Origin: Akkermansia muciniphila
GTDB lineage: Bacteria; Verrucomicrobiota; Verrucomicrobiia; Verrucomicrobiales; Akkermansiaceae
NCBI GenBank assembly: GCA_945883695.1
Contig: CAMCYK010000001.1
Span: forward strand, 40,730 to 104,729
DNA: 64,000 nucleotides
Direction of reading: 5' to 3'
Position 1 is the first letter of the stretch. Each line of letters opens with the position of its first letter. Shown in pieces: positions 15,066-33,603 of the stretch. Under the pieces are notes generated by a model. The model saw only the letters and a program-made list of their open reading frames with translations. It searched no databases and was not told the origin of the DNA. A program made the translations under genes and the position numbers.

Positions 15066-15557
15066 ATGGTGCGCAAGATGTCCGCCAGCAAATCGGTTGT
15101 TTTCGTCTGCACGGGGAATACCTGCCGCAGTCCGATGGCCGAGGGCTTGTTCCGCAAGGCGGTCGAGACGCGCGGTGACTTCAAGGTGAGTTCCGCCGGC
15201 ATCGCGGCCTATCCCGGCGACCGGCCGAATCCCGAGACGGTGAGGTTCCTAGGGGGGCGCGGGATCACCCTCGACGGCTTCTCCAGCCAGCCGGTCTCGC
15301 CGGAGCTGCTGGAGCAGGCCACCCATGTTTTCGCGATGACCTCCGGCCACCTGGAAACGCTCGAAAGCCTGTTCCCCGAGTTCGTCGACAAATTTTTCCT
15401 GGTCTGCGAGTTCGTGGAACTCCCCGGCCGCGGGGTGGCGGCCGACGTGCCCGATCCCATCGGCATGGGGAAGAAGGCATACGAGGAGGTCGGCAAGACG
15501 CTCGATCAGGCGATTCCCACCCTGATCGCCTTCATCGACCAGACCTGGCAGGGGTGA
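15066..15557 (+). CDS. low-molecular-weight protein phosphatase, YwlE (protein-arginine phosphatase)-like
   Basis: This 163-residue LMW-PTP-fold enzyme has its P-loop near the N-terminus: [15 protein letters not shown], with nucleophilic Cys and Arg in CX5R. The aspartate loop is '[16 protein letters not shown]'. In Bacillus YwlE the P-loop Thr in 'CTGNTCRS' gives specificity for phospho-arginine; the same Thr is present here. The next gene encodes RpiB and GlyA, copying the Bacillus ywlE-rpiB-glyA order. The frame is open to 14940, but conserved sequence starts around '[13 protein letters not shown]'; the ATG at 15078 is also possible. No McsB-type arginine kinase is in the window, so the substrate is an inference. 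Confidence 0.85.
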
Positions 15558-15656
15558 AGTTCCAAGGAAGAAGTGCCAACATTCCGGACCGGCCTTGCGA
15601 GTGCTGGGATTTTCCCCTGCCTTTTTTGGCACTTGGCACTTCTTTCTTGGCACTTC
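15557..15656. repeat. inverted pair of 'aagttccaag / cttggcactt' repeats
   Basis: Directly after the phosphatase stop comes 'aagttccaaggaagaagtgcc' (15557-15577). At 15623-15656 is the opposite-orientation run 'ttttggcacttggcac…cttggcacttcc'. The two could pair over a spacer of about 45 bases. The same motif borders actD (49904-49937 and 50507-50541). Confidence 0.6.
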
Positions 15657-15697
15657 CGGCCTCCACGGCCATTTCCCTCCCGCCCCAAGTGACCATC

Positions 15698-17378: not shown

Positions 17379-17870
17379 TCACGGCGGATCCAGCGGGGGC
17401 AAGACCCCGGCGGATCCGTCGTCGTACATCAGGGGTTCTTCCTCGACCTTCAGGGGCCGGAACTGGCCGTCATAGCTGTCGACCTGGAAGCGGAGCTCCT
17501 GCAGATCCCGGTTGGTTCCGCCAATGAGGTCGCGCAGTTCCTGGTTCTGCTCCACCGAGCTTTCGAGCAAGGTCAGCAGCTTCTCCACGCGGCTATCGGT
17601 GTCTCGCGGCGCATTGGCCCCGGTGGTCGGCCGGGAGGGGGCTTCGGCATCCCGGCGGGCCTCGGCGAGAAAGTCTCTGGCTTCCCGTGCCATCCCATCG
17701 TCGGGTAATGGGGAAGGGACGGGCCGCGAGGTCCCGACCGGCGCGAGATCGGCCGGCAACACCGCGGCCAGCGCGACCATGTCGCGGACGGAGAACCAGT
17801 GGGAACCGGCGGCTCCCGCCATCAGGGCGAGGGCGGTGCCGCAGACGAGCGGGATTTGGCTTGGTTTCAT
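17379..17870 (-). CDS. hypothetical exported or membrane-anchored coiled-coil protein, last gene of pilus cluster
   Basis: This 163-residue protein has an N-terminal hydrophobic segment (residues 8-22), a proline-rich linker, then a helical stretch (about 85-125) with 'RVEKLLTLLESSVEQNQELRDLIGG' character that should form a short coiled coil. The tail is acidic. I recognise no family. Its start overlaps the stop of the preceding gene by 4 bases, so it belongs to the minus-strand pilus/secretion cluster. It may be a periplasmic accessory factor. It ends 7 bases from the convergent rpiB-glyA stop. Confidence 0.6.
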   Translation of the reverse strand: MKPSQIPLVCGTALALMAGAAGSHWFSVRDMVALAAVLPADLAPVGTSRPVPSPLPDDGMAREARDFLAEARRDAEAPSRPTTGANAPRDTDSRVEKLLTLLESSVEQNQELRDLIGGTNRDLQELRFQVDSYDGQFRPLKVEEEPLMYDDGSAGVLPPLDPP

Positions 17871-18622
17871 CGCTGCTTATTGACGGGTGAAGGCTCCGGA
17901 GCGGGGGTGGCTTTGGGGGGCGCTTCGGGGGCAGCGGGCAGTGAACTTAAAAGTTGGCTGAGGCGGTCGAGCGCCGCGGACATCTGGCGCGAATCCTCTT
18001 CCATTCGCTCGATCGAGTTGCTCAGAACCGCGCTCATGGTGCCGGTCTGGGCATACCGGAGCCCGGGTTCGTAGCCGGGTTCGCCGACCGCCAGGACTTG
18101 TTCGCCATCGGCATCGGGGACCAGCAAATGCGGCCGGATCGACAGGGAAATGGTGGTGCCGTTGGCAAGCTGGACTTTCTCGACAAAGGCGGGAACTTCC
18201 TCGGGCTGTTCCAAGCGCCACCCTGCGGGTGGCAGGAACAGCGGCTTGGCGGGAAAGGGGGCGAGCAGCTTCACCGCGGCGGCATCGACTTTCGCGGAAC
18301 CATCCCTGCCCGGCTCCACCTGGACGGATACTCCCTCCGGTTCGGGCGCGGCGGGCGCTTCGTCGTTGATCGCCGCGTCAAGGTCGGGGTCATCCGCCGG
18401 CGCGCCGGGTTCCGGCGCGGGAACCTCGGAATCGAGGTCGCCGAGCGTCGGGTCGGTGGCGCTGATGTCGACCGTGACCGAGGGCATGTCCTCGTCTTCA
18501 AAGCCTTCCGTCAACGCGGACAGCACCGGATCGCGCTCCGAGGCTTTCGGCGCGATGTCCTGGGCAATGGCGGAAACGGCCGCGAGGGCGAGGCAGGCGG
18601 AAATGGGGCGGAGCGGGGTCAT
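17867..18622 (-). CDS. hypothetical exported protein of pilus/secretion cluster
   Basis: This 251-residue protein has a signal peptide (MTPLRPISACLALAAVSAIAQ), then an acidic Pro/Ala/Asp-rich region (residues 45-105). A conserved-looking domain (about 110-190) contains 'LFLPPAGWRLEQPEEVPAFV' and 'YEPGLRYAQTGTMSAVLSNS'. Next comes a short helix (SIERMEEDSRQMSAALDRL) and a Pro-rich tail. No known family recognised. It overlaps both neighbours by 4 bases (translational coupling). Likely periplasmic, working with the type IV filament machine. Confidence 0.6.
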   Translation of the reverse strand: MTPLRPISACLALAAVSAIAQDIAPKASERDPVLSALTEGFEDEDMPSVTVDISATDPTLGDLDSEVPAPEPGAPADDPDLDAAINDEAPAAPEPEGVSVQVEPGRDGSAKVDAAAVKLLAPFPAKPLFLPPAGWRLEQPEEVPAFVEKVQLANGTTISLSIRPHLLVPDADGEQVLAVGEPGYEPGLRYAQTGTMSAVLSNSIERMEEDSRQMSAALDRLSQLLSSLPAAPEAPPKATPAPEPSPVNKQR

Positions 18623-19401
18623 CGGTTCTGGATTTCGATGGCTTGGGTGCTGTCAAGGCTCTCGGTTTGGGCCGGCCCGGCTTCGCGGGTGAGGGAAGGG
18701 CTGTCGGCGCGCAGCACCGAGGCGGGAATCGAGGTTCCAACCAGCGAGTTCCACTCCGCGAGCAGCGTGCCGCCTTCGTCGCGGAGCAGGCGGCAAGCTT
18801 CCTGGTAGTGGCCGATACGAACCATCAGGTCGCGCGCCTGGGCCACCTCTTCGGTGGTCCAGCGGAGGGCCCGGCTGCGATAGAGCACGGGGACCTCGAG
18901 CGCGATCTTGCCGAGGTCTTCGCCGCCCGGGCCCTGGGCCTTGAGGACGTGTTGGATCTGGAGATTGGTCTGCTCGTACGCGTTCTCCGGGCCGGTCTGG
19001 GCGGAGGCAAAGCGGCGCGGGTCGGCGGGCTGCGGCTTGGAAACATCACCCGGCAGGGCGCTCGCCCGGGGCAGCAAGGAGTCCGCGTCCGGCGCAGCGG
19101 CCGTGGCCGCCGCAAAAACCGGGGAGGGGGCGCTCGCGGTGGCCGCCGGCCCGTGCGGAGAGCCGGTCACAATCACCGGCTTGGTCATGTAAAGTCCGCA
19201 GAAGACCGCCGCCATGGCGGTGCTGCCGGCGAGCAGCCACGGGTAGGCCCGCTGGACCGGACAGGTGGTGGAACGACGGTTGGAAGCGGTGGAAGTCGGA
19301 TGGGTCAAGGGCCCCAGCTCCAGGGTCTGGGGGCTGGCTGGCACCGGCACCGGCTTCGTGGCCAAGGGCGTCGCTTGGGTCGTGGTGGGCAGGGGTCGCA
19401 T
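18619..19401 (-). CDS. hypothetical single-pass membrane protein of pilus/secretion cluster
   Basis: This 260-residue protein has a cytoplasmic Pro/Thr-rich N-terminus of about 50 residues, one transmembrane helix (residues 53-72, AYPWLLAGSTAMAAVFCGLY) and a periplasmic part. Within that part, residues 135-215 are predicted mostly helical ('EVAQARDLMVRIGHYQEACR', 'LLAEWNSLVGTSIPASVLRA'). The layout resembles bitopic assembly proteins such as GspC or TonB-like couplers, but no family signature is visible. It starts 4 bases after the upstream stop, inside the same operon. Confidence 0.6.
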   Translation of the reverse strand: MRPLPTTTQATPLATKPVPVPASPQTLELGPLTHPTSTASNRRSTTCPVQRAYPWLLAGSTAMAAVFCGLYMTKPVIVTGSPHGPAATASAPSPVFAAATAAAPDADSLLPRASALPGDVSKPQPADPRRFASAQTGPENAYEQTNLQIQHVLKAQGPGGEDLGKIALEVPVLYRSRALRWTTEEVAQARDLMVRIGHYQEACRLLRDEGGTLLAEWNSLVGTSIPASVLRADSPSLTREAGPAQTESLDSTQAIEIQNR

Positions 19402-19405
19402 GAGT

Positions 19406-19891
19406 TCAAGGTGCGGGCAATTCGTCCGGCGGCTCCGCGGCGGGTGGTTCCACGGGCGCGGGCGGGACGTGGACGGCGTGGGTGATCACGGTTTGATCGG
19501 AGACGCCCGGGAACACGGTCAAGGTGAGCGAGTCCCGGGTCAGCCGCAGATGCTTGTGGACGCCGCCGTGGTCGCTGGTCGCCTGAACCCCGGGAACCAC
19601 CTCAAGCGGACCGCCGGGCGCGCTCTGTTGTCCGATCCCGTCGGAACGGTAAATGGTGAAAGTGGACCAGGCGTCCGACTGGGCGTCGGTCGTCAGGCGG
19701 ATCGTCACCCCGTCGGTTGAAACCGACAGCTTGAGCGGCTTGATCGGTATCCGGACCACCTTGCCGTTGCCGGTGATCTTCGTCTGGCTGCGGATGACGT
19801 AATCGCCGAACGTGTCAAAGTCGCCCTGTTCAGCCCCCGCGCTGAACACGAATGCCAAGGCGACCCCCGCGACTCTGGACAGAAGTTTCAT
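19406..19891 (-). CDS. hypothetical periplasmic protein of pilus/secretion cluster
   Basis: This 161-residue protein has a signal peptide (MKLLSRVAGVALAFVFSAGA). The rest is beta-rich: 'FGDYVIRSQTKITGNGKVVR', 'LKLSVSTDGVTIRLTTDAQS', 'HLRLTRDSLTLTVFPGVS'. The tail is proline-rich. No recognised family. Its start overlaps the stop of the pilin gene by 4 bases, which suggests it works with that pilin. The frame is open further upstream, but the signal peptide marks the start. Confidence 0.6.
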   Translation of the reverse strand: MKLLSRVAGVALAFVFSAGAEQGDFDTFGDYVIRSQTKITGNGKVVRIPIKPLKLSVSTDGVTIRLTTDAQSDAWSTFTIYRSDGIGQQSAPGGPLEVVPGVQATSDHGGVHKHLRLTRDSLTLTVFPGVSDQTVITHAVHVPPAPVEPPAAEPPDELPAP

Positions 19892-20310
19892 TCGCCGACG
19901 TCCCACTGGGAGTCCGTGGTGGTTTTGGAAGGATCGTAGCGGGTGCCGTCGATCCCGCTGGTGTTGGTCGTGAGATAAGGAGGCGAGACGTTCACCCGGG
20001 GGTAGAGCGTGGCGCTGTCCAGCGACTTCGAGGTCGGCATGGTTGCCGGATTGTTCGGCAGATACGGTAACAGCAAAGCTGGAGTCAGGGACGTCAAGGG
20101 GACCGTCGGGTTGTCGGCAAGATAGGTCCGCTGGGCGACATAGACGGTCCGCAGGTTCTCCGAAGCGTCGCGGGCGAGTTTCCATTGTCCCACCACGTTG
20201 GAAACGTAAAAGCCGGAGGTCATCAGCGCGAGCAGGACGAAGATCACGATCGACATCTCGATCAGGGTGAATCCCCGCGCTTGGAACCGGGTGGACGGGC
20301 TGGCTTTCAT
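19888..20310 (-). CDS. type IV pilin / pseudopilin-like protein
   Basis: This 140-residue prepilin has a short basic leader ending in Gly, then the class III N-methylation motif and hydrophobic helix: 'RGFTLIEMSIVIFVLLALM' with Glu at +5 of the mature protein. The rest is a small globular domain with Thr/Asn/Pro-rich loops and no obvious cysteine pair. It would be cut by a PilD-type prepilin peptidase (not in the window) and polymerised by the GspE/GspF machine encoded just upstream. It is one of two pilins in the cluster; the other is at 29397-29813. Confidence 0.88.
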   Translation of the reverse strand: MKASPSTRFQARGFTLIEMSIVIFVLLALMTSGFYVSNVVGQWKLARDASENLRTVYVAQRTYLADNPTVPLTSLTPALLLPYLPNNPATMPTSKSLDSATLYPRVNVSPPYLTTNTSGIDGTRYDPSKTTTDSQWDVGE

Positions 20311-20404
20311 GGCACGGAAGGGAATTTAGGTTAATAAAGATGAGTTGAAAAGACGGAAATATTAACGAACTTCCCGAAAGATCGCCCGGTGGCGGGCGGC
20401 GGCT

Positions 20405-20818
20405 TCAGCCCTTGAGGATTTCGAAGGCTTCCGCGACGTTCTTCCGGAGTTCGGGATCGGCCCACGCGTTGCGCCCGAGGTGGACCAGCCAGAAGACCAC
20501 GACCAAGGTGATGCCGAGCCAGATCAACCACCAGCTGATGGATTTCCCCTGGGGCGCGATCAGCGGCACATACCAAGCCTCCCGGTCGACCACGCGCGTG
20601 GTGAACATCTGGGAGCCGTCGCGGAGTTGCTCGAGCAGGGCGTTGACCGCGGTGTCGCTGCGCAGGATGAAGCGGTGCTTGTACTTGCGGCCGGGGGACT
20701 CCGGCAATTCCTCCGCGATCACGCCGGCCGGCACGGATTCCGGCAGCCTCAGCGTGTAGACGTGGGTCTCGTAGACGAAGCGTTCGCGCAGCCAGCGGTC
20801 GAGTCGGGTCAGTTGCAT
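20405..20818 (-). CDS. hypothetical membrane protein between GspF and pilin genes
   Basis: This 137-residue protein has a soluble N-terminal part of about 90 residues ('FVYETHVYTLRLPESVPAGV', 'RFILRSDTAVNALLEQLRDG'). One strong transmembrane helix follows (about 97-117, SWWLIWLGITLVVVFWLVHL), then a short C-terminal tail. No family recognised. Its place between gspF and a pilin suggests an inner-membrane assembly role. A 94-base gap separates it from the pilin, so the pilin could have its own promoter. Confidence 0.6.
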   Translation of the reverse strand: MQLTRLDRWLRERFVYETHVYTLRLPESVPAGVIAEELPESPGRKYKHRFILRSDTAVNALLEQLRDGSQMFTTRVVDREAWYVPLIAPQGKSISWWLIWLGITLVVVFWLVHLGRNAWADPELRKNVAEAFEILKG

Positions 20819-20847
20819 GGCGATCGTGGGATGGTCGGTTGTTCGGG

Positions 20848-21993
20848 TCAGATTCCGCTGTTCATCATCTTCGGGCCCATCAGGAAGATCGGCAGGAAGG
20901 TTCCGACGAAGACCGCGGCGATCAGGCCGACCGCGATCAGCAGGACCAGGAAATTCACGGTGGCGGTGAAGGACGCCATGTAGTTTTCGGAATCCTCCTC
21001 ATACATCTGCGAGAGCATCGCGAGCTGGCTGTCGAGCGAGGCGGACTTCTCGCCGATCGAGAGCATGTGGACGACCTGCGAGTCGACCGAGGTGTATTTG
21101 GCGAAAGCGGTGGAAAGCGGGACCCCGGAGTGCTCGTACTTGTCGGAAGCGTCGCGCAACTCCTGATAGAAGGGGGTGCCCTTGACGCTGTTGGCGGCGA
21201 CCCGGATCGATTTCGCGAGATTGATGCCGTTGGCGTGGAGCATCCGCATGGTCGAGAGGAAGGTCATCTGGCGCAGGCTGAGGATCATCATCCGGAGCAG
21301 GCGCCATTTCGACATGCCCAGGCCGAGGATCAGGTTGCGGATCTTGTCCGAGCGCCAGATGGTGATGCCGGCCGCGATGGCACCGCCGACCACGAAGGGC
21401 CACAGGGCCTTGGTGAGGGCGCTCACCTTGAAGGCGATGGCGGTCATCCCGTCCGGGCTCTGGCTGACCTGCTTGAGCATGTCCTGAACCTGGGGAACGA
21501 TGCTGAGCTGGGAGAAGATGAAGGCACCGCTCAGGACCGAGATGATCACGCCGGGCATGACGGTCGCCTTCTTGATCGCCTTGTTGAAGTGGAGTTCGCT
21601 GGAAAACCGCGAGGCGAGGGAAGTGAACGCCTCGTGGAGCTGGCCGGCGTCGCTGCCGGCCTGGACCAGGCCGATCACCATGTCGCTGAAGCGCCCCGTC
21701 CGCTTGAACGCCTCGTGGATGCTGACCCCCGCGTTGATATCCTCGCGGATCTTGGTCAGGGCGTCGGACATGACCTTGTCCTGAAGTCCCTGGCCATAGT
21801 ACTTCAGGGCGTCGGCGGTGTTGATCTGGGCCCGCAGCATCGAGCCGAGACCGCGAAACAACGAGATCAGCTGCTTCTTGGTGAACGGCTTCACCTTGGA
21901 CTGCTTGAGGAAACTGAACGAGCCCTGGGCGACGGCCGGCTTGGCGGGTGTCGCGGCGGGATTCGGTTTGGCGGCGGCGGTGGTGCTAGTCAT
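20848..21993 (-). CDS. gspF: type II secretion / type IV pilus inner-membrane platform protein (GspF/PilC family)
   Basis: This 381-residue polytopic protein has the two tandem GspF domains. The first (residues about 40-165) has 'LFRGLGSMLRAQINTADALK' and 'FKRTGRFSDMVIGLVQAGSD'; the second (about 240-365) has 'FLSTMRMLHANGINLAKSI' and 'MLSIGEKSASLDSQLAMLSQ'. Transmembrane helices follow each, the last near the C-terminus (VLLIAVGLIAAVFVGTFLPI). It couples the cytoplasmic ATPase to pilin assembly. Slightly shorter than the usual 400. The start overlaps the gspE stop by 8 bases. Confidence 0.92.
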   Translation of the reverse strand: MTSTTAAAKPNPAATPAKPAVAQGSFSFLKQSKVKPFTKKQLISLFRGLGSMLRAQINTADALKYYGQGLQDKVMSDALTKIREDINAGVSIHEAFKRTGRFSDMVIGLVQAGSDAGQLHEAFTSLASRFSSELHFNKAIKKATVMPGVIISVLSGAFIFSQLSIVPQVQDMLKQVSQSPDGMTAIAFKVSALTKALWPFVVGGAIAAGITIWRSDKIRNLILGLGMSKWRLLRMMILSLRQMTFLSTMRMLHANGINLAKSIRVAANSVKGTPFYQELRDASDKYEHSGVPLSTAFAKYTSVDSQVVHMLSIGEKSASLDSQLAMLSQMYEEDSENYMASFTATVNFLVLLIAVGLIAAVFVGTFLPIFLMGPKMMNSGI

Positions 21994-23680
21994 CGGTGTA
22001 TGTCATGTCGATGACCTTGGAAACGGCTTCGATGTCGGTCTTCCCTTCCCGCAGCAGGCGCAAGCCGCTGCGGCGGAGGTTCGGGAGCTTCCCTTCTTCC
22101 TGGATCTTGACTTCCAGGTCGTACGGGGAGATCTCGCCTTTTGACAGCATGTCCGAGGTCTTCGGGGTGATGGGGATGATTTCGAGAATCGCGGTCCGGC
22201 CGCTGTAGCCGGAGTTCCGGCATTCGGAGCAGCCGCCGGATTTGGCGGCGAACACCGGGATGGTGGCCCACGATTCGTCGAGATTGAAAGTGCGCCGGTC
22301 GTGTTCGGAGATCCCGTCGCGGGGCTCCTTGCAGTAGGGGCAAAGCAGTTTGACCAGGCGCTGGGCGCAGGCGGCCTTGAGCGTCTGCGCGATCTTCCAG
22401 CGCTCGACGCCGAGCTGCTCGAAGCGCTCGATGATCTGCGAGGCGCGCGGGGTGTGGATGGTGGTGAGGACCTTGTGACCGGTCACCGCCGCTTCGATGG
22501 CCAGTTCCGCCGACTCGATGTCGCGCACCTCGCCCATCAGGATGATGTCCGGGTCGCTTCGCATGAAGGAGGCGATCATCGGCTTGAACTCCTTGGCGCT
22601 TCTCAGGTCGCAATGGGTGATGCCGGGGACCTCGTCTTCCACCGGATTTTCCAGCGTCAGGATGTTGACGTCCGGCCGGTTCAGCTCGCGCAGGATGGCG
22701 TTGAGGGTGGTCGACTTGCCGGAGCCGGTCGGACCGGACATGACGATGATTCCGGCGGGCACCTTCATCACCTTGTTGAGTTCGAACATGGTCTCCTCGT
22801 CGAACGCGAGGGTGCCCTTGCCGAGCGTCACGTTGATGTTGCTCTTGTCGAGCAAACGCATGGTCACGTGATAGCCGCGGTAAGTGCGGTGGCGTTCGTA
22901 GCGGATGTCGATCGGCCGGTGGAAATAGGAGATGGTGAAACGGCCGGAGATGCCGGGCGCGGTGGCGCGGATCTCGGTCGGGAGTTTCATCAGGTTGAGC
23001 AGGAAGGCGTCGAGGCGGTCCTTCAGCTTCATCGGGATCTCGACCTTGTTGCCGATGTCACCGTCCACCCGGTAGGCGTAGTAGAAGGATTCCTTCTCCA
23101 CCTTGAAATGGATGTCCGAAGCACGGGTCTTGACCGCGTCCGCCATCACCGTGGCAACCAGCTGGGCCATCGGTTCGGTGTAGTCGGTGGTGACGTCGAA
23201 GTCGCGGATGCCCTCGTCGTTGTCCTCGACGTCGATGGCTTCCAGTTCGGTGCGGCTGGGGCCGGAGTTGGTCGCGACGGATTCGATCGCGCGGGCGATC
23301 TCCGAGGCGAGGGTGACGATCTTGACGATCTCCAGGTCGGGGAAGCGCGGGGCGAGATATTCGTCGGGGAGCGGACTCCAGGGATTGGCGACGGCCACGA
23401 TCAGCTTGTCGCCGGTGATCGAGAGCGGACTGAAGAGCCCGCGGGTCAGCACGGTGGGATCGCAGTAGGTATGAAGCGAGCCGTCGCAGAATTCGGCGAC
23501 CTTCGGGAAAAACGCAAGCCCGTTGATCTTGGCCACGGCACCCATGAAGCAGTAGCGGGTCACGCGGTTGGCGACCTGGTCGTGCGAAAGCTCGCCATAT
23601 TGCGGGTCGTGGCTGGCCAACGCGCGCATGATCTGCCCGCTGATCAGCTCGTTGAAAGACATGGAGTCGTAGTCGATCAC
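21986..23680 (-). CDS. gspE: assembly ATPase of type IV pilus / type II secretion (GspE/PilB family)
   Basis: This 564-residue cytoplasmic hexameric ATPase powers filament extension. The N-terminal 150 residues resemble a divergent N1/N2 domain. The core has 'ASDIHFKVEKESFYYAYRVD' (N2), Walker A 'GPTGSGKSTTLNAILREL', Asp box 'ILTLENPVEDEVPGI', Walker B 'DIILMGEVRDIESAELAIEA' and His box 'TGHKVLTTIHTPRA'. The C-terminal four-cysteine zinc motif typical of PilB/GspE is present (CPYCKEP and CSECRNSGYSGR). The start overlaps the previous stop by 4 bases. Confidence 0.93.
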   Translation of the reverse strand: MIDYDSMSFNELISGQIMRALASHDPQYGELSHDQVANRVTRYCFMGAVAKINGLAFFPKVAEFCDGSLHTYCDPTVLTRGLFSPLSITGDKLIVAVANPWSPLPDEYLAPRFPDLEIVKIVTLASEIARAIESVATNSGPSRTELEAIDVEDNDEGIRDFDVTTDYTEPMAQLVATVMADAVKTRASDIHFKVEKESFYYAYRVDGDIGNKVEIPMKLKDRLDAFLLNLMKLPTEIRATAPGISGRFTISYFHRPIDIRYERHRTYRGYHVTMRLLDKSNINVTLGKGTLAFDEETMFELNKVMKVPAGIIVMSGPTGSGKSTTLNAILRELNRPDVNILTLENPVEDEVPGITHCDLRSAKEFKPMIASFMRSDPDIILMGEVRDIESAELAIEAAVTGHKVLTTIHTPRASQIIERFEQLGVERWKIAQTLKAACAQRLVKLLCPYCKEPRDGISEHDRRTFNLDESWATIPVFAAKSGGCSECRNSGYSGRTAILEIIPITPKTSDMLSKGEISPYDLEVKIQEEGKLPNLRRSGLRLLREGKTDIEAVSKVIDMTYTDD

Positions 23681-24252
23681 AGTCCGAAGTGTTTGCGGGT
23701 GAGGAAACTCCAGCTCTCGTAGTCCATCCGGACCGCGGTGACGAAGGGCTTGATCCCGAAGCGGCGGTCCACGGTGAGGAGGATCTCCTCGGCCATGATC
23801 CGGGCGGCGACGGGGTTGAGGGCACCGGTTCCGATCGCGTCGGTATCCTCGGCATAGAGCACCGGGGCGAGCAGCGAACGGGCGGTCTTGTGCAGTTGGT
23901 CGAAGGACTCGTAGAAGGCGGACGGGGCGATGAGCTTGCCGGCGAAGGGGACCATCGGGGGCGACGGATGGATGACCATCGACACCGCGTGGGTGATGCG
24001 GGCCACCTCGATTCCCATGTGTTCCTCTTCCGCCCCCTGGACCCGTGCGAGGATCTCGAGGAGATCCATCGGTGACCCTTCGGCCACCGAGCGCTCGAAG
24101 ACGACCCGGCTGCGGGCGATCTCGGTTTCGGTGGCGATCCCGGTGGCCTGGATCGCCTGCACCGTCTGCTCCATGCAGTCGCGGAGCAGGCGTAGGGTGT
24201 CACCGGGTTTGCGCACCGAAGGGTCGTGAAGGGAGTGGATGGGGGATGACAT
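23677..24252 (-). CDS. hypothetical cytoplasmic protein upstream of gspE
   Basis: This 191-residue protein has no signal peptide or membrane helix. It is mostly helical, with 'DTLRLLRDCMEQTVQAIQAT', 'VARITHAVSMVIHPSPPMVP' and 'NPVAARIMAEEILLTVDRRF'. I recognise no family. It is translationally coupled to gspE (4-base overlap), so an ATPase regulator or cytoplasmic partner is a reasonable guess and no more. Confidence 0.6.
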   Translation of the reverse strand: MSSPIHSLHDPSVRKPGDTLRLLRDCMEQTVQAIQATGIATETEIARSRVVFERSVAEGSPMDLLEILARVQGAEEEHMGIEVARITHAVSMVIHPSPPMVPFAGKLIAPSAFYESFDQLHKTARSLLAPVLYAEDTDAIGTGALNPVAARIMAEEILLTVDRRFGIKPFVTAVRMDYESWSFLTRKHFGL

Positions 24253-24306
24253 GGGAATCGGAGGGTGGGGAGGAAAGTGGACGGGGAACCGATCCCCGCC
24301 CTTATT

Positions 24307-26139: not shown

Positions 26140-26190
26140 GGCGGATATTGGGCAGGTGTTTTGGGACAGTTGAGAGAGTGTTCGGACACC

Positions 26191-26889
26191 TCAGGGATTT
26201 CCTGAAACGGGAGTGACCGGTTGGATCTGGAGAGGAGCGTCGCCACCGCCCGGCTGGACGCCGGGGGCGGAGAGGGTGCCGACCCCGCGGGTCATCCCGG
26301 GGGGGCGGAGATCCAGCCTCCGGCTCGCCGTTTCGCCGGTTTCGACATTGCGGAAATCAATGCGGGAGGAACTCACTGCCATCACCTGGACCTTCACGAT
26401 CTTACCGCTCGGCAGTTGGATCGGGAAAATGTCCTTCACGGTGAAGGTGCGGTCGGCGCTCAGGAACTGCTGGCTTTTGACCATGTTCACCGTGATCGCC
26501 GCGATGATGTCGGCGAAGGGCGTGGGAGGCTCCAGTTTGGTTCGCTGGGTCGGCGAAGGGTTGGCCATTCGTTCCGGCTCGGGTGCCTTGTAATCAGGGT
26601 CCTGGTAGCGGCCGAAGGGATCGGTCGCCCGCTGGCGGATGCTCAGGCGGGTCGTCAGTTCGTTGACGTAAGGCCCGATCTCGTCCCCGGCGTAGCGGGA
26701 GGGTTCGAGGTTGGCGCTGGCCGGCAGGGGTTCAGGCCGGGCGGCGGGTTTGGCCGGTGCCGGTTCGACGGGTGCCAGCCCGGACGTGTCGAAGCCCTCC
26801 GCCGACTGGGCCGGGGAAGGCATGGTGCCGAGGATCAGCAGGGCCGCGATGACGTGCGGCAAAGGGGATGAAGAGGGGTGCGGTTTCAT
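26191..26889 (-). CDS. exported pilus-assembly accessory protein (PilP/GspC-like position)
   Basis: This 232-residue protein has a signal peptide (residues 1-30, …HVIAALLILGTMPSPAQSA) and a Pro-rich linker. Residues 90-190 are conserved-looking, with 'RTKLEPPTPFADIIAAITVN' and 'VKDIFPIQLPSGKIVKVQVM'. The tail is Pro/Gly-rich. Its position between the PilO-like gene and the secretin is that of pilP in pilMNOPQ operons, and the size and make-up fit, but no PilP signature is seen. The start overlaps the PilO-like stop by 4 bases. Confidence 0.7.
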   Translation of the reverse strand: MKPHPSSSPLPHVIAALLILGTMPSPAQSAEGFDTSGLAPVEPAPAKPAARPEPLPASANLEPSRYAGDEIGPYVNELTTRLSIRQRATDPFGRYQDPDYKAPEPERMANPSPTQRTKLEPPTPFADIIAAITVNMVKSQQFLSADRTFTVKDIFPIQLPSGKIVKVQVMAVSSSRIDFRNVETGETASRRLDLRPPGMTRGVGTLSAPGVQPGGGDAPLQIQPVTPVSGNP

Positions 26890-27419
26890 TTTTCCCAAGC
26901 GGTGTAGGTGACCTGGAAGTTCAGGGTGGAGGTCGACGAGGAGCTGGGCTCGATCTTCAGATCTTGCAGCTGGAGCTGCGGCATCCGGGTTTCCAGCTCG
27001 ACAAAGGCCCGCTGCATCGAGCGGAAAGTCCCGCGGAAGGCGAGTTTGACCTGGGAGGACTTCTGGGTCGAGGCGGAGGCGAAGCCGGTGCTGCCGGACG
27101 GGTATTCGACGGCGGTCTGCTGGAATTCCCTGGCCGGGAGCAGGTCGCCGATCTCCTTCAGGTGCGAGGTGATCGAGTTGGCGGTTTCCTTTTCCAGCTG
27201 GGTGTTCCAGCGATCGACGTGAGGCCGCTTCTTGCTGACCTGGGCTTCGAGGGTCAGGGCCCCGATACGGTTGTTTTCGGCCGACTTGAAGAGCGCTTGC
27301 TTCTGTTGGAAGGACGCCGCGGCCTTGGATTTGAGGGCGAAACCTCCGCCGACGATGGCGGCGCAGACCGCGAAGGGCAGCACGAAGCCGAACAGGACGA
27401 TGGATTGACGGTAAAACAT
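26886..27419 (-). CDS. PilO/GspM-like inner-membrane alignment protein
   Basis: This 177-residue bitopic protein has one N-terminal membrane helix (residues 5-28, QSIVLFGFVLPFAVCAAIVG) and a coiled-coil-prone stretch to about residue 75. A ferredoxin-like periplasmic domain follows ('VKLAFRGTFRSMQRAFVELE', 'PQLQLQDLKIEPSSSSTSTL'), which is the fold and layout of PilO and GspM. It would bridge the inner-membrane platform and the secretin. Its order after the GspL/PilMN-like gene and before the PilP-like gene matches pilMNOPQ. Confidence 0.78.
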   Translation of the reverse strand: MFYRQSIVLFGFVLPFAVCAAIVGGGFALKSKAAASFQQKQALFKSAENNRIGALTLEAQVSKKRPHVDRWNTQLEKETANSITSHLKEIGDLLPAREFQQTAVEYPSGSTGFASASTQKSSQVKLAFRGTFRSMQRAFVELETRMPQLQLQDLKIEPSSSSTSTLNFQVTYTAWEK

Positions 27420-27461
27420 GGTTGGCGGGGAGTGTGGGTGTGAAGGAACCCGTGGCCGGGA

Positions 27462-29249
27462 TCAGGGAGCCTTGGCGGAGAGCAGCGCCATCAGATCGGC
27501 GGAAGCGAAGCGCTGCTGGATCGTCAGGTCGAACGAGAAGGGATAGCTCGACTCGTCGCGCTGCGACATGTCGTCGACCGGGCCGGGACGGAAGCTGCCG
27601 TTCTCCAGAGTGCGTACGTTGACCACCAGGCTGCGGTTGGGCAGGTCGGTGCGGAACGAGGTGTTGCCGGTGAGAGTGGCGATCCCGGTGAAGATTGATG
27701 ACATGCCATCCCGGGTGTTGAGAATCGCCAGCCGTTCGAGCGCTTCCTCGCGGGCCAGGCCGGTGATTTTCCACTCGCGGACAAAGCCGACCCGGGCCTG
27801 GCCGGGGGCGCTGTCGGTGCGGATCGTGTGGTTGAAGGACTTGACCAAAAAGCCGCTCTTGTCGGGGAACAGGCCTCCGAGCAATTCCATCGAGGCCCAC
27901 GCCTTCGAGCGGTCTTCGAGCAGATTGTCCCAGTGGTCGATGCGCGCCCGCCCGGTGGAGAGATGGGCGATCCGTTGCTGCTGCGATTGCGCGGTTTTCG
28001 CGTCAAAGGCCCACTCCGGTTTGCGGATCATGTCGATCAGTTGGAGCCCGGTCCAGGAGAGAGCCAGCAAAGCGACGGCGGCGAATCCAAGCCGGGCATA
28101 GCGGGCGGAGCGCAGCAGCTTCATCTCGCCCCGCGACGGATAGACCTCGAAGGCGTCCTTGGCGACCGGCAGGAAATCCTGGGTGGCCCAGCCGTCGCCC
28201 CGCAGGACAGTGAAGGTGTGTGAAGATCCCAGCGGCGACTCGCTGGCGGTGGCCAGCGCCGTGGCGATCATCGGTTCCGGGCAACCGCTGCCGGTCGAGC
28301 CGGCGTGGTAGGGTGTTCCCGACCAGTCGATCTCGTGGATCGAGGCGGCGGGGAACACCAGTTGCAGGTCGGCCGCGAGCTGGGGGTCGGCCTGCTCGCC
28401 GATGGTGAACAGGAAGACCTCGGGCTCGGAGAGTTCCAGCGCCGCGGCGGTGGTGGACGCGGCGTGGCGGAGATTGGTGGGCCGCCGTTGGCCGCGGTGC
28501 TGCAAGGTGCGCAGCAGGCGAAGGTCGCCGTGCTCGTTGAAAAAGGCCAACAAGGTGAAGCGCGGATAGGGCAGCACCGCGATCAGCGGGCGGATCAATT
28601 CGCCGGTCTTGAGGTCGGGCAGCGCCAGCAGGCAAACCAGCGGCGCGCTGACCGCCCGGGTGATCAAGGGGAAGTTCTTCTCCTCGCCGAACTTCCTCAC
28701 TTCATCCAGGAAGCCGGACCACTGGCGGCTGATGCAGACGGTGGTGGCGATCGCCTCGCTGCCGGACGCCGGGTAGGGAACCAGCCGCCAGCTGGACTCG
28801 CTGGCGGAGACGGAAGAGTCGTCGAGAATCGACTTCGGATCGTTCTCGATGGTTCCCCGCAGTTCGGCCAGGGCGCCCGGGTTATCGAGTTCGGGCTTGA
28901 GCTCGGAGGTCGCGAACTCGTCGGCGATATGGAGAATCACGCCGGCGGCATCGGCACCGGCCTTCTGGGCGAACCCGATCAGCTCCGCGGCAAAGGCCGG
29001 CACGAGCGTGAGATCGGTGGCCAGCGCGTCGTCGAGGACGGGGCCTGCGCTCCACTGGCCGGACCGGCGGTCGAAGACGAAAGAATCGAGGCGGTTGCCG
29101 TCGACACGGAGATGGAGCTGGAGATCCAGCTCGAGAGCGCTGCGGTACCAGGCGGGATTGGTGGCGCGGCTGGTGCCGCGCAGGACGTTACCGGCCTGGC
29201 GCAAGCGCTGGAGGGGATTGAGACCCGCGGGATGTTGGTAAGCGACCAA
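27462..29249 (-). CDS. GspL-like / PilM-PilN-like assembly protein
   Basis: This 595-residue protein has a cytoplasmic part of about 375 residues with weak actin-like (PilM/GspL) character ('PLITRAVSAPLVCLLALPDL', 'AALELSEPEVFLFTIGEQAD'). One transmembrane helix is near 385-402 (LGFAAVALLALSWTGLQLI). A periplasmic domain of about 190 residues follows, with a helix and then PilN-like strands ('FVREWKITGLAREEALERLA', 'SSYPFSFDLTIQQRFASADL'). This is the layout of GspL, which combines what PilM and PilN do separately. It is about 200 residues longer than typical GspL. Confidence 0.75.
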   Translation of the reverse strand: MVAYQHPAGLNPLQRLRQAGNVLRGTSRATNPAWYRSALELDLQLHLRVDGNRLDSFVFDRRSGQWSAGPVLDDALATDLTLVPAFAAELIGFAQKAGADAAGVILHIADEFATSELKPELDNPGALAELRGTIENDPKSILDDSSVSASESSWRLVPYPASGSEAIATTVCISRQWSGFLDEVRKFGEEKNFPLITRAVSAPLVCLLALPDLKTGELIRPLIAVLPYPRFTLLAFFNEHGDLRLLRTLQHRGQRRPTNLRHAASTTAAALELSEPEVFLFTIGEQADPQLAADLQLVFPAASIHEIDWSGTPYHAGSTGSGCPEPMIATALATASESPLGSSHTFTVLRGDGWATQDFLPVAKDAFEVYPSRGEMKLLRSARYARLGFAAVALLALSWTGLQLIDMIRKPEWAFDAKTAQSQQQRIAHLSTGRARIDHWDNLLEDRSKAWASMELLGGLFPDKSGFLVKSFNHTIRTDSAPGQARVGFVREWKITGLAREEALERLAILNTRDGMSSIFTGIATLTGNTSFRTDLPNRSLVVNVRTLENGSFRPGPVDDMSQRDESSYPFSFDLTIQQRFASADLMALLSAKAP

Positions 29250-29320
29250 GGGATGAAGGGTGTGAGGGTGCGGTCATCGGCGGGGGGAGAAAAAGGGGGG
29301 AAGAGAGAGGAGGGAGGCCT

Positions 29321-29342
29321 CCCGCCCGTGGGAGCGGGCGGG
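29321..29342 (-). terminator. GC-rich hairpin between pilin and GspL-like genes
   Basis: An 8-bp perfect stem (29321-29328 with 29335-29342) with a 6-base loop lies 54 bases past the pilin stop. On the minus strand it is followed by a pyrimidine-rich tract but not a pure U-run. It could be a partial terminator or an mRNA-protecting hairpin that lets the pilin be made in excess over the assembly proteins, as is common in pilus operons. Confidence 0.4.
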
Positions 29343-29396
29343 AGACCGGGGCTGGTTCCGGAGGTCGACCTTGCGGGACGCTCCGGAAAAAGCGGA

Positions 29397-29813
29397 TTAC
29401 CAGTCGTCGGTGGTGCCGGCGGTCGGCGCGTACTCGCCGTCGTCAGCGGTCACGTAAAGGTCACCAACATCTGGCACCAACACGCCCGCGCCGGTTCCGT
29501 AGATGTATTGAACGGCGCTACCGGCAGGATGTGGGTTGCCAACGGGGTTGTTCTCGATGAACTTGCCAGAGCCGAAGATATCGCCGATTGCAATAGTGTC
29601 ACCGGGATTGAGGCCGCTCATGTTAGCATGCGAGCGCACGGCCTGCTGGCAGTTGCGGATCGTCAGGATCGAGGCGGCACGGTCGGAACCCTTCTTCCAG
29701 GCGCGGGCACCGATGAAGAGGATCGAGATGAGGGAGAGCAAAACGAGGATGACCACCGTCAGTTCGAGGAGGGTCATGCCGCTTGCGCGCTTGGTGTTAC
29801 GTGTCAGTTTCAT
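29397..29813 (-). CDS. type IV pilin / pseudopilin (GspG-like)
   Basis: This 138-residue prepilin has a basic leader (MKLTRNTKRASG), then 'MTLLELTVVILVLLSLISIL' with the conserved Glu at +5 and a long hydrophobic helix. The globular part is GspG-like in size, with 'QQAVRSHANMSGLNPGDT' and a glycine-rich C-terminus. There is no Cys pair. The conserved order after the PilT-like gene makes it a probable major subunit. A T/G-rich leader of about 85 bases (29814-29899) precedes it. Confidence 0.88.
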   Translation of the reverse strand: MKLTRNTKRASGMTLLELTVVILVLLSLISILFIGARAWKKGSDRAASILTIRNCQQAVRSHANMSGLNPGDTIAIGDIFGSGKFIENNPVGNPHPAGSAVQYIYGTGAGVLVPDVGDLYVTADDGEYAPTAGTTDDW

Positions 29814-29899
29814 GTCTGGTGTGTTGTCTGTGGGTGTGTACTTGTGTGTTTGTTGTCGGCGGGAGAACGGTGGGCCGTTCTCGAAAGGGGTGGGAAAGG

Positions 29900-31174
29900 T
29901 CAGAGGATCTCGGTTTCGTCGCGGTTCATCCGGGCGTTCTCGAAGGCTTCTTCGGTGATCAGGCCCTGGCGCATCAGGCGGCGCAGGTTGGCGTCCCATT
30001 CGATGCTGCCGGCGCGGCGGATCACGTCCTCCAGCGAGCGGGCGCCGCCGTCGTAGTTGGCGATGGCGGAGGAAACGGCGTCGTCGTTGTTCTGCAGGAA
30101 TTCGTAGGTGAGGACCCGGCGCTGGATGCCGTTGAGGAGGCCCTGGGAGTGGATGAAGATCAGGATTTCCGACAGTCGCGAGAGGATCGAGGCGTGGTTT
30201 TCCTTCGGGTAGAGTTCGAGGATACGGCCGATGGTCTTGACCGCGCCGGTGGTGTGCAGGGTGGAGAGGACCAGGTGACCGGTCTGGGCGGCCTCCATGC
30301 AGGTCTCCATCGCCTCGCGGTCGCGGAGTTCCCCGAGCAGGATGACGTGGGGCGCCTTGCGGAGGACGTCCTTGAGGCCCTGGCGGTAGGAGTGGACGTC
30401 GCGTCCGACTTCCTGCTGGGTGACCACGCTGGGGCAGGGGATGCGGCGGCCCGGGTATTCGGGATCCTCCATGTCATCCGGATACTGGTATTCGATGGGG
30501 TCTTCCACGGTAACCACGTGTTTGCCGTGGTTGCGCCGGAGCCAATCGATCAGGGCGGCGAGGGTGGTCGACTTGCCGGAACCGGTCGGGCCGGTGACCA
30601 GGCACAGGCCGGCCCGCTTCAGCACCGCCTGGCGGAGCACCGTGTTGGTGTCGGCATCGATCCCGAGGCTTTCGAGTTCCGGGATGTAGTCGTTGAGGAT
30701 ACGGCAGGTTACCCCGAGGCCGGAGGAGCTGAGGTGGGCCTGGATACGGAGGCGGCCGGAGCGCTCGCCATTGTTGCCCATCGGGATGCCGTCGCAGGAG
30801 AAGTCGGCGACCTTGCGCTCCGCGAAGTCACGGATGGCGGCGTTGATCTTGTCCTCGACGCGGAGGTGGAGGTTGTCGTCCTCGCCGAAGCCGTGGCTGG
30901 CGCTCTCGCGGTTGCTGATGAGTTCCTTGAGGATCTCATCCATGTGGCGGGCGGTGAGGATGCCCAGGAAATCCAGTTTTTCGACGCCCTTGTTGGTATG
31001 GATATAAACCGGGCGTTCGGCGCGCATCTGGATGTCCGACGCCCGGACTTCCTTGCAGACGCGGAAGATGATCGCCAGCAGGGTGGCGCCGTTCATGTCC
31101 GCTGCGAAGCGCGGAGCTGCCGCCGGGGCATTGCTGACCGGAAGTGGCGGTGGTTCGTGAACGGCGGTGAACAT
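29900..31174 (-). CDS. PilT-family retraction-type ATPase
   Basis: This 424-residue cytoplasmic hexameric ATPase has 'VCKEVRASDIQMRAERPVYI' and 'ILTARHMDEILKELISN' (PilT N domain). Its core has Walker A 'VTGPTGSGKSTTLAALIDWL', Asp box 'HVVTVEDPIEYQY', Walker B 'HVILLGELRDREAMETCMEA', His box 'TGHLVLSTLHTTGA' and a PilT-type 'AEILIFIHSQGLL'-like region. There is no zinc motif, which separates it from GspE. It should depolymerise the filament, which points to a dynamic pilus rather than a plain secretion system. The frame is open upstream, but MFTAVHEPPP is the sensible start. Confidence 0.88.
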   Translation of the reverse strand: MFTAVHEPPPLPVSNAPAAAPRFAADMNGATLLAIIFRVCKEVRASDIQMRAERPVYIHTNKGVEKLDFLGILTARHMDEILKELISNRESASHGFGEDDNLHLRVEDKINAAIRDFAERKVADFSCDGIPMGNNGERSGRLRIQAHLSSSGLGVTCRILNDYIPELESLGIDADTNTVLRQAVLKRAGLCLVTGPTGSGKSTTLAALIDWLRRNHGKHVVTVEDPIEYQYPDDMEDPEYPGRRIPCPSVVTQQEVGRDVHSYRQGLKDVLRKAPHVILLGELRDREAMETCMEAAQTGHLVLSTLHTTGAVKTIGRILELYPKENHASILSRLSEILIFIHSQGLLNGIQRRVLTYEFLQNNDDAVSSAIANYDGGARSLEDVIRRAGSIEWDANLRRLMRQGLITEEAFENARMNRDETEIL

Positions 31175-31226
31175 GGGAGGGTGGTTTGAAAAGGTGAAAG
31201 CTGAGATGTTAAAAACAGGGAGCGGC

Positions 31227-32096
31227 TCAGCGGGAGAGGGATGCCTGGTCGGGCGTGGTGGAGGAGAGGCGGCGGATAGTGGCTTCGGCAGCGTCGCGGA
31301 CCTTGGTGACGAAGGCGAGGCGCTCGAGCATTTCGTCCTGACGGGCGGGCGAGAGGTTCTGGAAGTCGCCGCTTTCAATCCAGCGGGACCCCAATTCGCG
31401 ATGGCGGGCGAGCGCCTGGTCGAGCAAGCGGAGTTGCTGGCTCATCTGGTCGATGCTGTGATTGTCCCGGTGCTGGAACATCAGCTCGAGGATGTTGCCG
31501 GCGGCCGAGGCGGCGGTGAGGGCGGGACGGGGGTCGGACTGTTCGCGCAAGGAGTAGTCGATGGTCAGGCCGGCGAGCATCAGGACCCGTTCGGTCAGCA
31601 CCGGGCGGGTGCCGACGGCGGGTTCGGTCAGGAAGAGATGATACGAGTTGTAATTCGCGTAGTTGGAGGGATCCAGCTCGTAGGCGAAGAGCAGACGGTC
31701 CTCGACCTGGCGCCGCAGGTAAAACTTGTGGCCCTCGCTGGCGGGGCGCGGGTTGGTGCGCTCGGTCACGGCGCTTTCGATCCGCGAGATGAACGACGCT
31801 TCCCGCGAGGGCGCCTGGTCGCCGGCATCACAGGTTTCGGCAGCCGTCCCGTGGTCATGACCACAATCGCCGCATTTCTTCGTGCCGGTCCGGGCCTCGG
31901 CACCGTGCCAGTCGGCATCGATGCCGCCTTGCACCGCAAGCGCGATGACCTGGCCGTAGGGGCTCATTTTCAAGCCCAGCGGATTCGGGCGGTAGTCGAA
32001 ATCCCCGCCCGAGGCCAGCCGCGCGGCACCGTAGGACCACAGCGCCACGCCGGAGACGGCGAGCGAGAGGTTGATCACGATGTTGCGGAGATTCAT
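31227..32096 (-). CDS. hypothetical exported/membrane protein with a Cys-His cluster
   Basis: This 289-residue protein has an N-terminal hydrophobic anchor or signal (residues 5-25, IVINLSLAVSGVALWSYGAA). Around residue 75 lies 'CGDCGHDHGTAAETC', a Cys/His-rich loop that could bind a metal. The rest is helical and looks TPR-like ('LLFAYELDPSNYANYNSYHL', 'NILELMFQHRDNHSIDQMSQ'). No family recognised. It sits between the ABC permease and the PilT-like gene. Spacing to the permease is 38 bases, consistent with one transcript. Confidence 0.6.
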   Translation of the reverse strand: MNLRNIVINLSLAVSGVALWSYGAARLASGGDFDYRPNPLGLKMSPYGQVIALAVQGGIDADWHGAEARTGTKKCGDCGHDHGTAAETCDAGDQAPSREASFISRIESAVTERTNPRPASEGHKFYLRRQVEDRLLFAYELDPSNYANYNSYHLFLTEPAVGTRPVLTERVLMLAGLTIDYSLREQSDPRPALTAASAAGNILELMFQHRDNHSIDQMSQQLRLLDQALARHRELGSRWIESGDFQNLSPARQDEMLERLAFVTKVRDAAEATIRRLSSTTPDQASLSR

Positions 32097-32134
32097 GGAG
32101 CCTTGGAGAGAGAGAGGGAGGGAAGATTGAGAAA

Positions 32135-32902
32135 TCAGGCGGTGGCGCGGACGCGGAAGACGAGGCGGGAGATCACGGCGTGGACCAGCAGGATGCCGCC
32201 GAAGTAGGCGATCAGCAGGGGAAACTTGTCCCAGGCGATCGCGCCGAGCTTGTAGCGCAGGCGTTCGGTGGGATCGGCGAAGTGATAATGGGGCGAAGAG
32301 GCCCACAGCCATTTGAGCAGCGCGCTGCTCTCGAGGTTCGCGAGGAGCTTGAGGTAGCCGACGCCGTAGAGGCCGTAGATCGCGAGGGCGCTGGAGGCGA
32401 GGAAACCGGTGATGCTGCCGAAGCGGGAGGCCACGGCGGCTGCGAGGGCAACCAGCGGCGCCATCACCAGCAGGAAAAGGATGGCATACTGGACATTGGT
32501 GGCCAGCCACATGGCCCGTTCGTCGGGCAGGGCGGGACTGGCGCCGAGGATGCAAATGGCCGCGGCAACGAAAGGCAGCGGGGCGAGATAGGTGAAAACC
32601 GAAAGCCACATCTCGAACAGCTGGCGGCCCGCGGAGACCCCGGTGGTGAGAAAGTATTCCCCGAGACCGGAGCGGGCATTGCTTTCGCCCTGCTTCGCGG
32701 CGGTGAAAAAGCCCCAGAACACGGCGGACAGCAGGGCCATCGCCCAGGTCGCCTGGGCGATCGCGGGCTTGAGCAGGGCGGGGTTCTCGGTGCCGCTCGA
32801 GATATACTGCAAGAGGAATGGCAGGACTCCCACGGCGAAGGCGCAGATCACCCACGACTTGCGTCGGAAAAGCGTGGCGGTGGTGAGGCGGTAAAGGCGC
32901 AT
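32135..32902 (-). CDS. ABC transporter permease subunit
   Basis: This 255-residue protein has about six transmembrane helices ('SWVICAFAVGVLPFLLQYIS', 'WAMALLSAVFWGFFTAAKQG', 'YLAPLPFVAAAICILGASPA', 'AILFLLVMAPLVALAAAVAS', 'GFLASSALAIYGLYGVGYLK', 'IAYFGGILLVHAVISRLVF'). The layout fits ABC-2-type exporter permeases. It pairs with the ATPase just upstream. An earlier ATG at 32938 would overlap that gene by 31 bases; I prefer 32902. The substrate is unknown. Confidence 0.75.
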   Translation of the reverse strand: MRLYRLTTATLFRRKSWVICAFAVGVLPFLLQYISSGTENPALLKPAIAQATWAMALLSAVFWGFFTAAKQGESNARSGLGEYFLTTGVSAGRQLFEMWLSVFTYLAPLPFVAAAICILGASPALPDERAMWLATNVQYAILFLLVMAPLVALAAAVASRFGSITGFLASSALAIYGLYGVGYLKLLANLESSALLKWLWASSPHYHFADPTERLRYKLGAIAWDKFPLLIAYFGGILLVHAVISRLVFRVRATA

Positions 32903-32907
32903 GGCGG

Positions 32908-33603
32908 TCAGTTCAGCTGTTGCTTGAGTTGGCTCCATGTCTGGTCGTTGCCGACCGTGTGGCGGATTCCCTCGCCTTGGATCACCAGGGCGCTCGGCAT
33001 GTTCATCGAGTCATAGTCGGGATGGCAGCTGACCAGCCGCAGGACCTGTTGGGAGCTCGCCCGCCAGATTCCTTCGAAGACTTCCCGCGCATAGGCGTCG
33101 AGGCCACTGAAGGGCTCGTCGAGCAACAGGATGTTCCCGCTTGCCGGATCGACGGAGTGTTCCGCGACGATGAGGTGGGTCTTGCGGCGGTTCCCGGTGG
33201 AAAGTTTGCCGTAGGGCTTGCGGACATCGAGCTCAAGCGAAGCGGCGAGATCGATCGCAGACTTGCGGCGGGCCGCCGGGATCATGGCTTTGAAAATGCC
33301 GGCGACCGTGATCTCCGGGTCGAAGCGCAGGTCTTCGGGAAGGTACTGGGTTTTGCCCTCCGCCACGAAAGTGCCCTTCATCTGTTTGAGGGTTTTGGCG
33401 AGCGTGCGGAGCAGCGTCGTTTTGCCGCGACCGTTGCGGGCAATCAGGAAGTGGGTTCCCCCGCTCAGCGAAATATCCTCAGCGGCGGAAGCAAGGGCCT
33501 GGCTGTAACCAATGGTCAGGCCGGCTTGGAGCTTCAACTGTGGGGACTTCGGATTCATTCCAATGACGCTGATTTCGCTGCTGGTTCTAGTGATTTCGGC
33601 CAA
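32908..33603 (-). CDS. ABC transporter ATP-binding protein
   Basis: This 231-residue ATPase has a Walker A of 'ARNGRGKTTLL' (first Gly replaced by Ala), a signature of 'LSTGNRRK' (a variant of LSGGQ), Walker B 'ILLLDEPFSGLDAYA' and H-loop 'LVSCHPDY'. The changes are mild and it should still bind ATP. It is the first gene of the long minus-strand run containing the pilus cluster and pairs with the permease. An internal Met at residue 16 (33558) is an alternative start. Confidence 0.82.
   Translation of the reverse strand: MAEITRTSSEISVIGMNPKSPQLKLQAGLTIGYSQALASAAEDISLSGGTHFLIARNGRGKTTLLRTLAKTLKQMKGTFVAEGKTQYLPEDLRFDPEITVAGIFKAMIPAARRKSAIDLAASLELDVRKPYGKLSTGNRRKTHLIVAEHSVDPASGNILLLDEPFSGLDAYAREVFEGIWRASSQQVLRLVSCHPDYDSMNMPSALVIQGEGIRHTVGNDQTWSQLKQQLN

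Follow-up and report, generated by a model that had tools for sequence, protein, structure and literature searches.

A conserved pilus-type gene cluster with a linked ABC transporter trio in Akkermansia and related Verrucomicrobia, probably encoding a retractile type IV filament machine

What kind of machine is encoded by a run of pilin, secretin and secretion-type ATPase genes that opens with an ATP-binding cassette (ABC) transporter? The question is raised by a stretch of 64,000 nucleotides (nt) of Akkermansia muciniphila DNA (GenBank assembly GCA_945883695.1, contig CAMCYK010000001.1, positions 40,730 to 104,729 of the forward strand), hereafter the window, in which 18 genes on the minus strand form one co-directional run from 33558 to 17379 (region 17379-33603). 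We computed the gene content, synteny, linkage, motifs, predicted folds and distribution of this cluster, and the reading that we favour is that it probably encodes a complete, dedicated, retractile type IV filament machine of a lineage-restricted subfamily, with the ABC transporter and its partners as an integral, PilGHI-like component. The genes on which this reading is based are listed 5′ to 3′, with sizes in amino acids (aa); g13 lies between the platform gene and pil2, and g15, g16, g17 and g18 close the run.

32908..33558, minus strand: ABC transporter ATPase, 216 aa (PF00005, E 5.5e-9; motifs; best match in 8/8 relatives is the cluster copy)
32135..32902, minus strand: ABC-2-like permease, 255 aa, several transmembrane segments (PF12698 in family members; transmembrane scan)
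31227..32096, minus strand: g3, third member of the trio, with a hydrophobic N-terminus and a helical-looking C-terminus (family alignment)
29900..31174, minus strand: PilT-like retraction-type ATPase, 424 aa (TIGR01420; PilT in the PDB, E 2.5e-45)
29397..29813, minus strand: pil1, type IV pilin, 138 aa, G^MTLLE, probable major pilin (pilin N-terminus, C-terminal Trp)
27462..29249, minus strand: g6, predicted PilM-PilN fusion of GspL type, start codon uncertain (AlphaFold model, Foldseek, transmembrane scan)
26886..27419, minus strand: g7, PilO/GspM-like (PF10741 T2SSM_b in the family)
26191..26889, minus strand: g8, putative PilP/GspC-like periplasmic protein (position before the secretin, family alignment)
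24307..26139, minus strand: secretin, 610 aa (PF00263, E 4.6e-32; PF03958)
23677..24252, minus strand: g10, candidate free-standing MshEN/GSPII-like domain (AlphaFold2 model, predicted local distance difference test (pLDDT) 92.1; Foldseek)
21986..23680, minus strand: PilB/GspE-like extension ATPase, 564 aa (PF00437, E 5.3e-81)
20848..21993, minus strand: GspF/PilC inner-membrane platform (PF00482 in two stretches, E 1.1e-36)
19888..20310, minus strand: pil2, second type IV pilin, 140 aa, G^FTLIE (PF07963, E 4.6e-5; conserved C-terminus)

A retractile filament is the preferred reading because one run holds a pair of pilins, a secretin, a platform protein and two different ATPases whose Walker motifs are intact. 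An earlier sequence-only reading of this DNA had named two pilins, GspE-like and PilT-like ATPases, GspF and a secretin, and the Pfam and NCBIfam scans bore this out, with matches in the cluster proteins to ABC_tran, T2SSE (two proteins), T2SSF (two stretches), Secretin and Secretin_N, together with pilin N-terminal signals. For the PilT-like protein the best-scoring model was TIGR01420 (PilT/PilU), at 251.4 bits against a cut-off of 319.1; the Walker motifs are intact across its family, and its gene is found in or beside the cluster even after rearrangement. The extension ATPase scored 308.6 bits with the PilB model TIGR02538 (cut-off 675.65), 288 bits with GspE (cut-off 630.25) and 34 bits with TadA, and its family conserves the Walker motifs and a tetra-Cys site. 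The secretin reached 138.6 bits with GspD (cut-off 351.35) and 127.9 bits with PilQ TIGR02515 (cut-off 284.35), no additional PilQ-type N-terminal domain being detected in it by Pfam, and the platform protein scored higher with the GspF model than with the PilC models. The NCBIfam scores of the core proteins thus lie far below all cut-offs for the type IVa pilus and the type II secretion system (T2SS). The ATPase phylogeny, which had been proposed as a check, placed the PilT-like proteins with PilTs and not with PilB/GspE, and gathered the extension ATPases in one fully supported, long-stemmed clade apart from PilB, GspE, HofB and the other GspE paralogues of the genome, although with a small reference set and several long branches the exact position in these trees is unsure.

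The proteins between pil1 and the secretin were examined through predicted structures and family profiles. The AlphaFold2 model of g6 (pLDDT 87) comprises an actin-like domain, a long helix with a transmembrane-like stretch at about 387-405 and a periplasmic domain, and its Foldseek matches in the PDB include PilM and FtsA, with E down to 2.5e-7. Because the predicted fold matches these two proteins, g6 is read from its model as a PilM-PilN fusion of GspL type, in agreement with the GspL-type part noted before; its sequence gave no family match, and Pfam scans of g6 family members returned nothing consistent. PF10741 T2SSM_b was found in 16 of 38 members of the g7 family (best E 6.6e-6), which upholds the PilO-like part of the earlier description. 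The PilP-like part stood less firmly: the position of g8 and its sequence character suggest a PilP/GspC role, but no family or PDB match was obtained. PDB profile searches with g6, g7, g8 and g10 gave no convincing match. With the g10 model, the 11 top Foldseek matches in the PDB were all GSPII/MshEN domains (Thermus thermophilus PilF, MshE), so that g10 likely, though not certainly, has this fold.

The trio formed by the ABC ATPase, the permease and g3 was followed across related genomes. In the family of the ATPase, Walker A/B, an LS[TRK]GN signature and the switch His are conserved; PF12698 ABC2_membrane_3 was found in 19 of 45 permease family members (best E 2.7e-8), with no match in the window permease itself. 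No Pfam or PDB family was found for g3, Pfam scans of its family members gave nothing consistent, and PDB profile searches with g3 and the permease gave no convincing match. When the window ATPase was used as query, the best match in 8/8 genomes was the cluster copy (E 3e-31 to 5e-112), the other ABC ATPases of those genomes reaching about 1e-7 at best. Permease and g3 were present in the cluster at 54 loci with long enough flanks, at the head in 38, at the tail in 15 and inverted at the head in one; two of the head cases are duplicate contigs (L045/L075 and L060/L101), leaving 52 distinct trio-bearing loci. Well-covered distinct loci numbered 54, and the two exceptions among them are L046, which is without the trio, and L111, which shows none in its flanks; about 20 further loci are too short to judge. 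Many of the trio loci are closely related and do not represent independent events, the three arrangements being the stronger point. Since it accompanies the cluster in 52 of the 54 well-covered distinct loci, in one or another of these three arrangements, the trio is, as judged by gene linkage, integral to the filament system. Two side observations concern these genes: many g3 family members carry a long His/Asp-rich linker (HDHDH) beside the ABC transporter, suggestive of metal binding (window g3, 31227-32096), and a second ABC ATPase match lies downstream of g18 at loci L033 and L083.

The ABC pair at the head had been called unusual; it is integral here, but it has a precedent: a passage of PMC3724824, citing Wu et al. 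(1998), presents the Myxococcus xanthus proteins PilG, PilH and PilI as essential both to the translocation of pilin and to piliation, while supporting experimental data for a transport role of PilGHI are said not to be available (PMC6060248). In both cases genetic linkage connects an ABC ATPase, a permease and a third protein with a locus of type IV pilus type, although in our system g3 has no family match and the position of the trio varies between lineages. It is plausible, by this analogy, that the trio works like PilGHI.

Both pilins carry prepilin sites with Glu5. The N_methyl match of pil1 was below the cut-off, the pilins did not attain the GspG model (17.4 bits, cut-off 88.85), and the conserved C-termini of the families are a Trp in pil1 and YDPSG..D.LWD.G in pil2. 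The 147-nt gap between pil1 and g6 (29250-29396, minus strand) showed a folding z of -6.1, and it contains a strong hairpin:

29319..29344, minus strand: GC-rich hairpin between pil1 and g6, perhaps an attenuator or an mRNA stabiliser

Of 20 Akkermansiaceae-type loci tested, 19 have a structured gap at this place (z of -2.1 or below), and four control gaps have median z between -1.6 and 0.1. Structured elements of such kind often serve to increase the abundance of a single cistron, and from the conserved structured RNA after pil1 we therefore infer that pil1 is probably the major pilin. The search for prepilin peptidases gave one in the genome (C32), which lies outside the cluster and presumably serves its pilins as a shared enzyme.

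In order to see how far the system extends, we collected 96 loci from a secretin scan of a genome collection and a search of relatives, some genomes being in both sets, and placed 18 protein families on them by iterative profiles. Haloferula/Luteolibacter relatives retain nearly the whole gene order, and Prosthecobacter, Brevifollis, Verrucomicrobium and Chthoniobacter-type genomes have the rearranged order pil1-g6-g7-g8-secretin-g10-extension ATPase-platform-pil2-ABC-permease-g3, often followed by pilT on the opposite strand. Because dozens of other genomes carry this gene set in this order, the cluster is not a chance assembly, and the synteny check proposed across Verrucomicrobiota was answered by near-complete and by rearranged clusters. 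The g6 profile was found in 134/387 genomes of the order versus 18/388 of a sample of the phylum, and was missing from all 20 listed genomes of a genus in the same family whose genomes are small. Together with the missed cut-offs and the trees, these counts support, within the genomes searched, the suggestion of a lineage-specific filament system; its restriction to some Verrucomicrobia is largely supported by these sequence searches, which were aimed at the phylum and not at distant relatives outside it. A plasmid search with the extension ATPase returned distant family members only, and a de novo search for further conserved neighbours gave mostly shadow open reading frames (ORFs) and the flanking gene on the purM side. 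We found no literature report of such a cluster in Verrucomicrobia, and the main text of Denise et al. (2019; PMC6668835) does not mention the phylum.

Filament formation, retraction and the roles of g10 and the trio can be pictured as follows. The PilB/GspE-like ATPase and the GspF/PilC platform would polymerise the pilins, pil1 probably as major and pil2 as second pilin, after processing by the peptidase encoded outside the cluster; g6, g7 (PilO/GspM) and g8 (PilP/GspC) would connect the secretin, where the filament may exit, with the inner-membrane motor, and the dedicated PilT-like ATPase would depolymerise the filament, making it retractile. The free-standing g10 domain probably regulates or adapts an ATPase, and the trio would be an integral accessory, needed for filament biogenesis in the manner of PilGHI.

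Tested for membership of the type IVa pilus, the T2SS, the Tad pilus and the Amuc_1098 system, the cluster lacks at least one defining feature of each. With the type IVa pilus of M. xanthus and Pseudomonas aeruginosa the cluster shares PilB-, PilC-, PilT-, PilM/N-, PilO-, PilP- and PilQ-like parts and an order, (MN)-O-P-Q followed by B-C, that resembles pilMNOPQ; it differs in that PilM and PilN are fused, the PilB, PilT and PilQ models are unreached, minor pilins, PilY1 and PilD are missing from the cluster (PilY1 was sought by Pfam in the cluster proteins), and g10, g13 and g15-g18 are additional. With the T2SS it has in common both the GspL-type fusion and the GspM-b signal, as well as GspE-, GspF- and GspD-like parts, and it departs from it by a dedicated PilT and by two pilins in place of a GspG-K set, the GspD, GspE and GspG models being unreached. 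The conflict between PilT and GspL pointed out earlier is therefore real: because the parts form a mosaic, membership of neither system can be assigned. A Tad pilus was rejected on the TadA score and on a single GspF-type protein with two T2SSF stretches versus the paired TadB/TadC. An Amuc_1098-type pilus cluster was likewise rejected, as the window secretin scored 52 bits with NF042912 (cut-off 750). This family of Akkermansia and other Verrucomicrobia, to which belongs the PilQ secretin (Amuc_1098) studied in PMC4960237, is also a secretin-dependent verrucomicrobial pilus system, but its secretins, which passed the cut-off in 54 of the 57 genomes searched, are encoded apart from the cluster in the genome of the window (C39 and C99). 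Since that genome also has further PilB/GspE-type (C9, C126) and PilT-type ATPases (C137, C183), the window cluster is an additional machine. The "generic" type IV filaments of Denise et al. (2019; PMC6668835) come close in having an ATPase, a platform, a pilin and in part a secretin that no specific model fits; theirs is a catch-all class, whereas here one defined syntenic subfamily is seen.

Several observations weigh against a retractile filament. Two traits recall the T2SS, namely the fused g6 and the T2SSM_b match in the g7 family; the family of the PilT-like ATPase conserves an S-x-I-x-x-Y-D-x-x-x-x-S-L-E-D-type sequence in place of the AIRNLIRE-type motif, which is a PilT motif; the cluster has two pilins only, no minor-pilin set being found among its proteins by Pfam and NCBIfam; the pil1-g6 gap was structured in 0/7 Verrucomicrobiaceae-type loci; and the Foldseek matches of g10 are of moderate strength (E 1.2e-3 to 4.9e-2, template-modelling (TM) scores 0.31-0.41). 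The traits of g6 and g7 are what a divergent T2SS would show, one whose short pseudopilus would drive folded exoproteins out by way of the secretin, with the PilT-like protein as a retained or repurposed second motor, and the slight preference of the secretin for GspD and that of the platform for GspF go the same way. This is the main rival, which we nonetheless consider unlikely, as the extension ATPase favours PilB over GspE, a dedicated PilT is present, the cluster has no GspH-K set and its pilins fall well short of the GspG model.

The same retractile machine might instead serve chiefly for natural transformation: PilB, PilT and a secretin make up a type IVa set, and some type IVa pili take up DNA in diderms (PMC6668835). 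Competence genes are absent from the cluster, however, and we regard a DNA-uptake pilus as improbable. Least credible of all is that the trio has nothing to do with the filament genes and sits beside them by accident; its permease and g3 have no attached function, L046 is without it and L111 shows none in its flanks, but its linkage has persisted through relocation and inversion, and the cluster copy is the best match of the ATPase in all eight genomes tested. A bolder version of the retractile filament reading can be put forward tentatively, namely a distinct filament machine found in Verrucomicrobia only, that could not work without its ABC-2 exporter and its free-standing MshEN-like subunit, which might, for example, load or modify the filament during assembly.

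A second lineage in which an ABC trio has kept its tie to a pilus-type cluster through relocation and inversion speaks independently for ABC transporters as genuine components of machines of this sort. The role of PilGHI in pilus biogenesis is poorly understood, and Haloferula, Luteolibacter and Brevifollis offer cultured hosts for such a trio. The "generic" filaments also gain a defined subfamily in this cluster, one distinct from the Amuc_1098 pilus of Akkermansia; the g6 fusion, the likely free-standing MshEN/GSPII domain of g10 and the conserved structured RNA after pil1 are new details.

The remaining genes of the run encode accessory proteins:

20405..20818, minus strand: g13, small protein with one C-terminal transmembrane segment (transmembrane scan; in 64 loci)
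19406..19891, minus strand: g15, exported-looking (in 52 loci)
18619..19401, minus strand: g16, with an internal hydrophobic segment (in 50 loci)
17867..18622, minus strand: g17, exported-looking, Pro/Ala-rich, possible coiled coil (in 49 loci)
17379..17870, minus strand: g18, with an N-terminal hydrophobic segment and a possible coiled coil (in 50 loci)

The genes g15-g18 occur mainly in the Haloferula/Luteolibacter group. With g3 and g10, the five proteins g13 and g15-g18 make up the seven proteins for which Pfam and NCBIfam gave no sequence family, so that the count of seven given before is correct at the sequence level. The statement that most genes overlap by four bases was overstated, such overlaps occurring at 5 of the 17 junctions; one more junction overlaps by 8 bases, and at the other 11 the genes are 4 to 147 bases apart. 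For the first gene, ATG 33558 is a likelier start codon than TTG 33603. Scans of the region for sigma-70 promoters and terminators stayed at chance level, and an Rfam scan of it gave no match.

The cluster is flanked by purM/purF-type genes on one side and by a gene fusion on the other, both on the plus strand. The latter (window 15554-17371, plus strand) is one 605-aa ORF that fuses ribose-5-phosphate isomerase B (RpiB, PF02502) with serine hydroxymethyltransferase (SHMT, PF00464), and the RpiB-SHMT fusion is also present in three further genomes of the group. Farther along (window 12087-14742, minus strand), two overlapping ORFs in different frames look like fragments of a single autotransporter-like (PATR) gene, which hints at an assembly error or a frameshift around 13276-13421.

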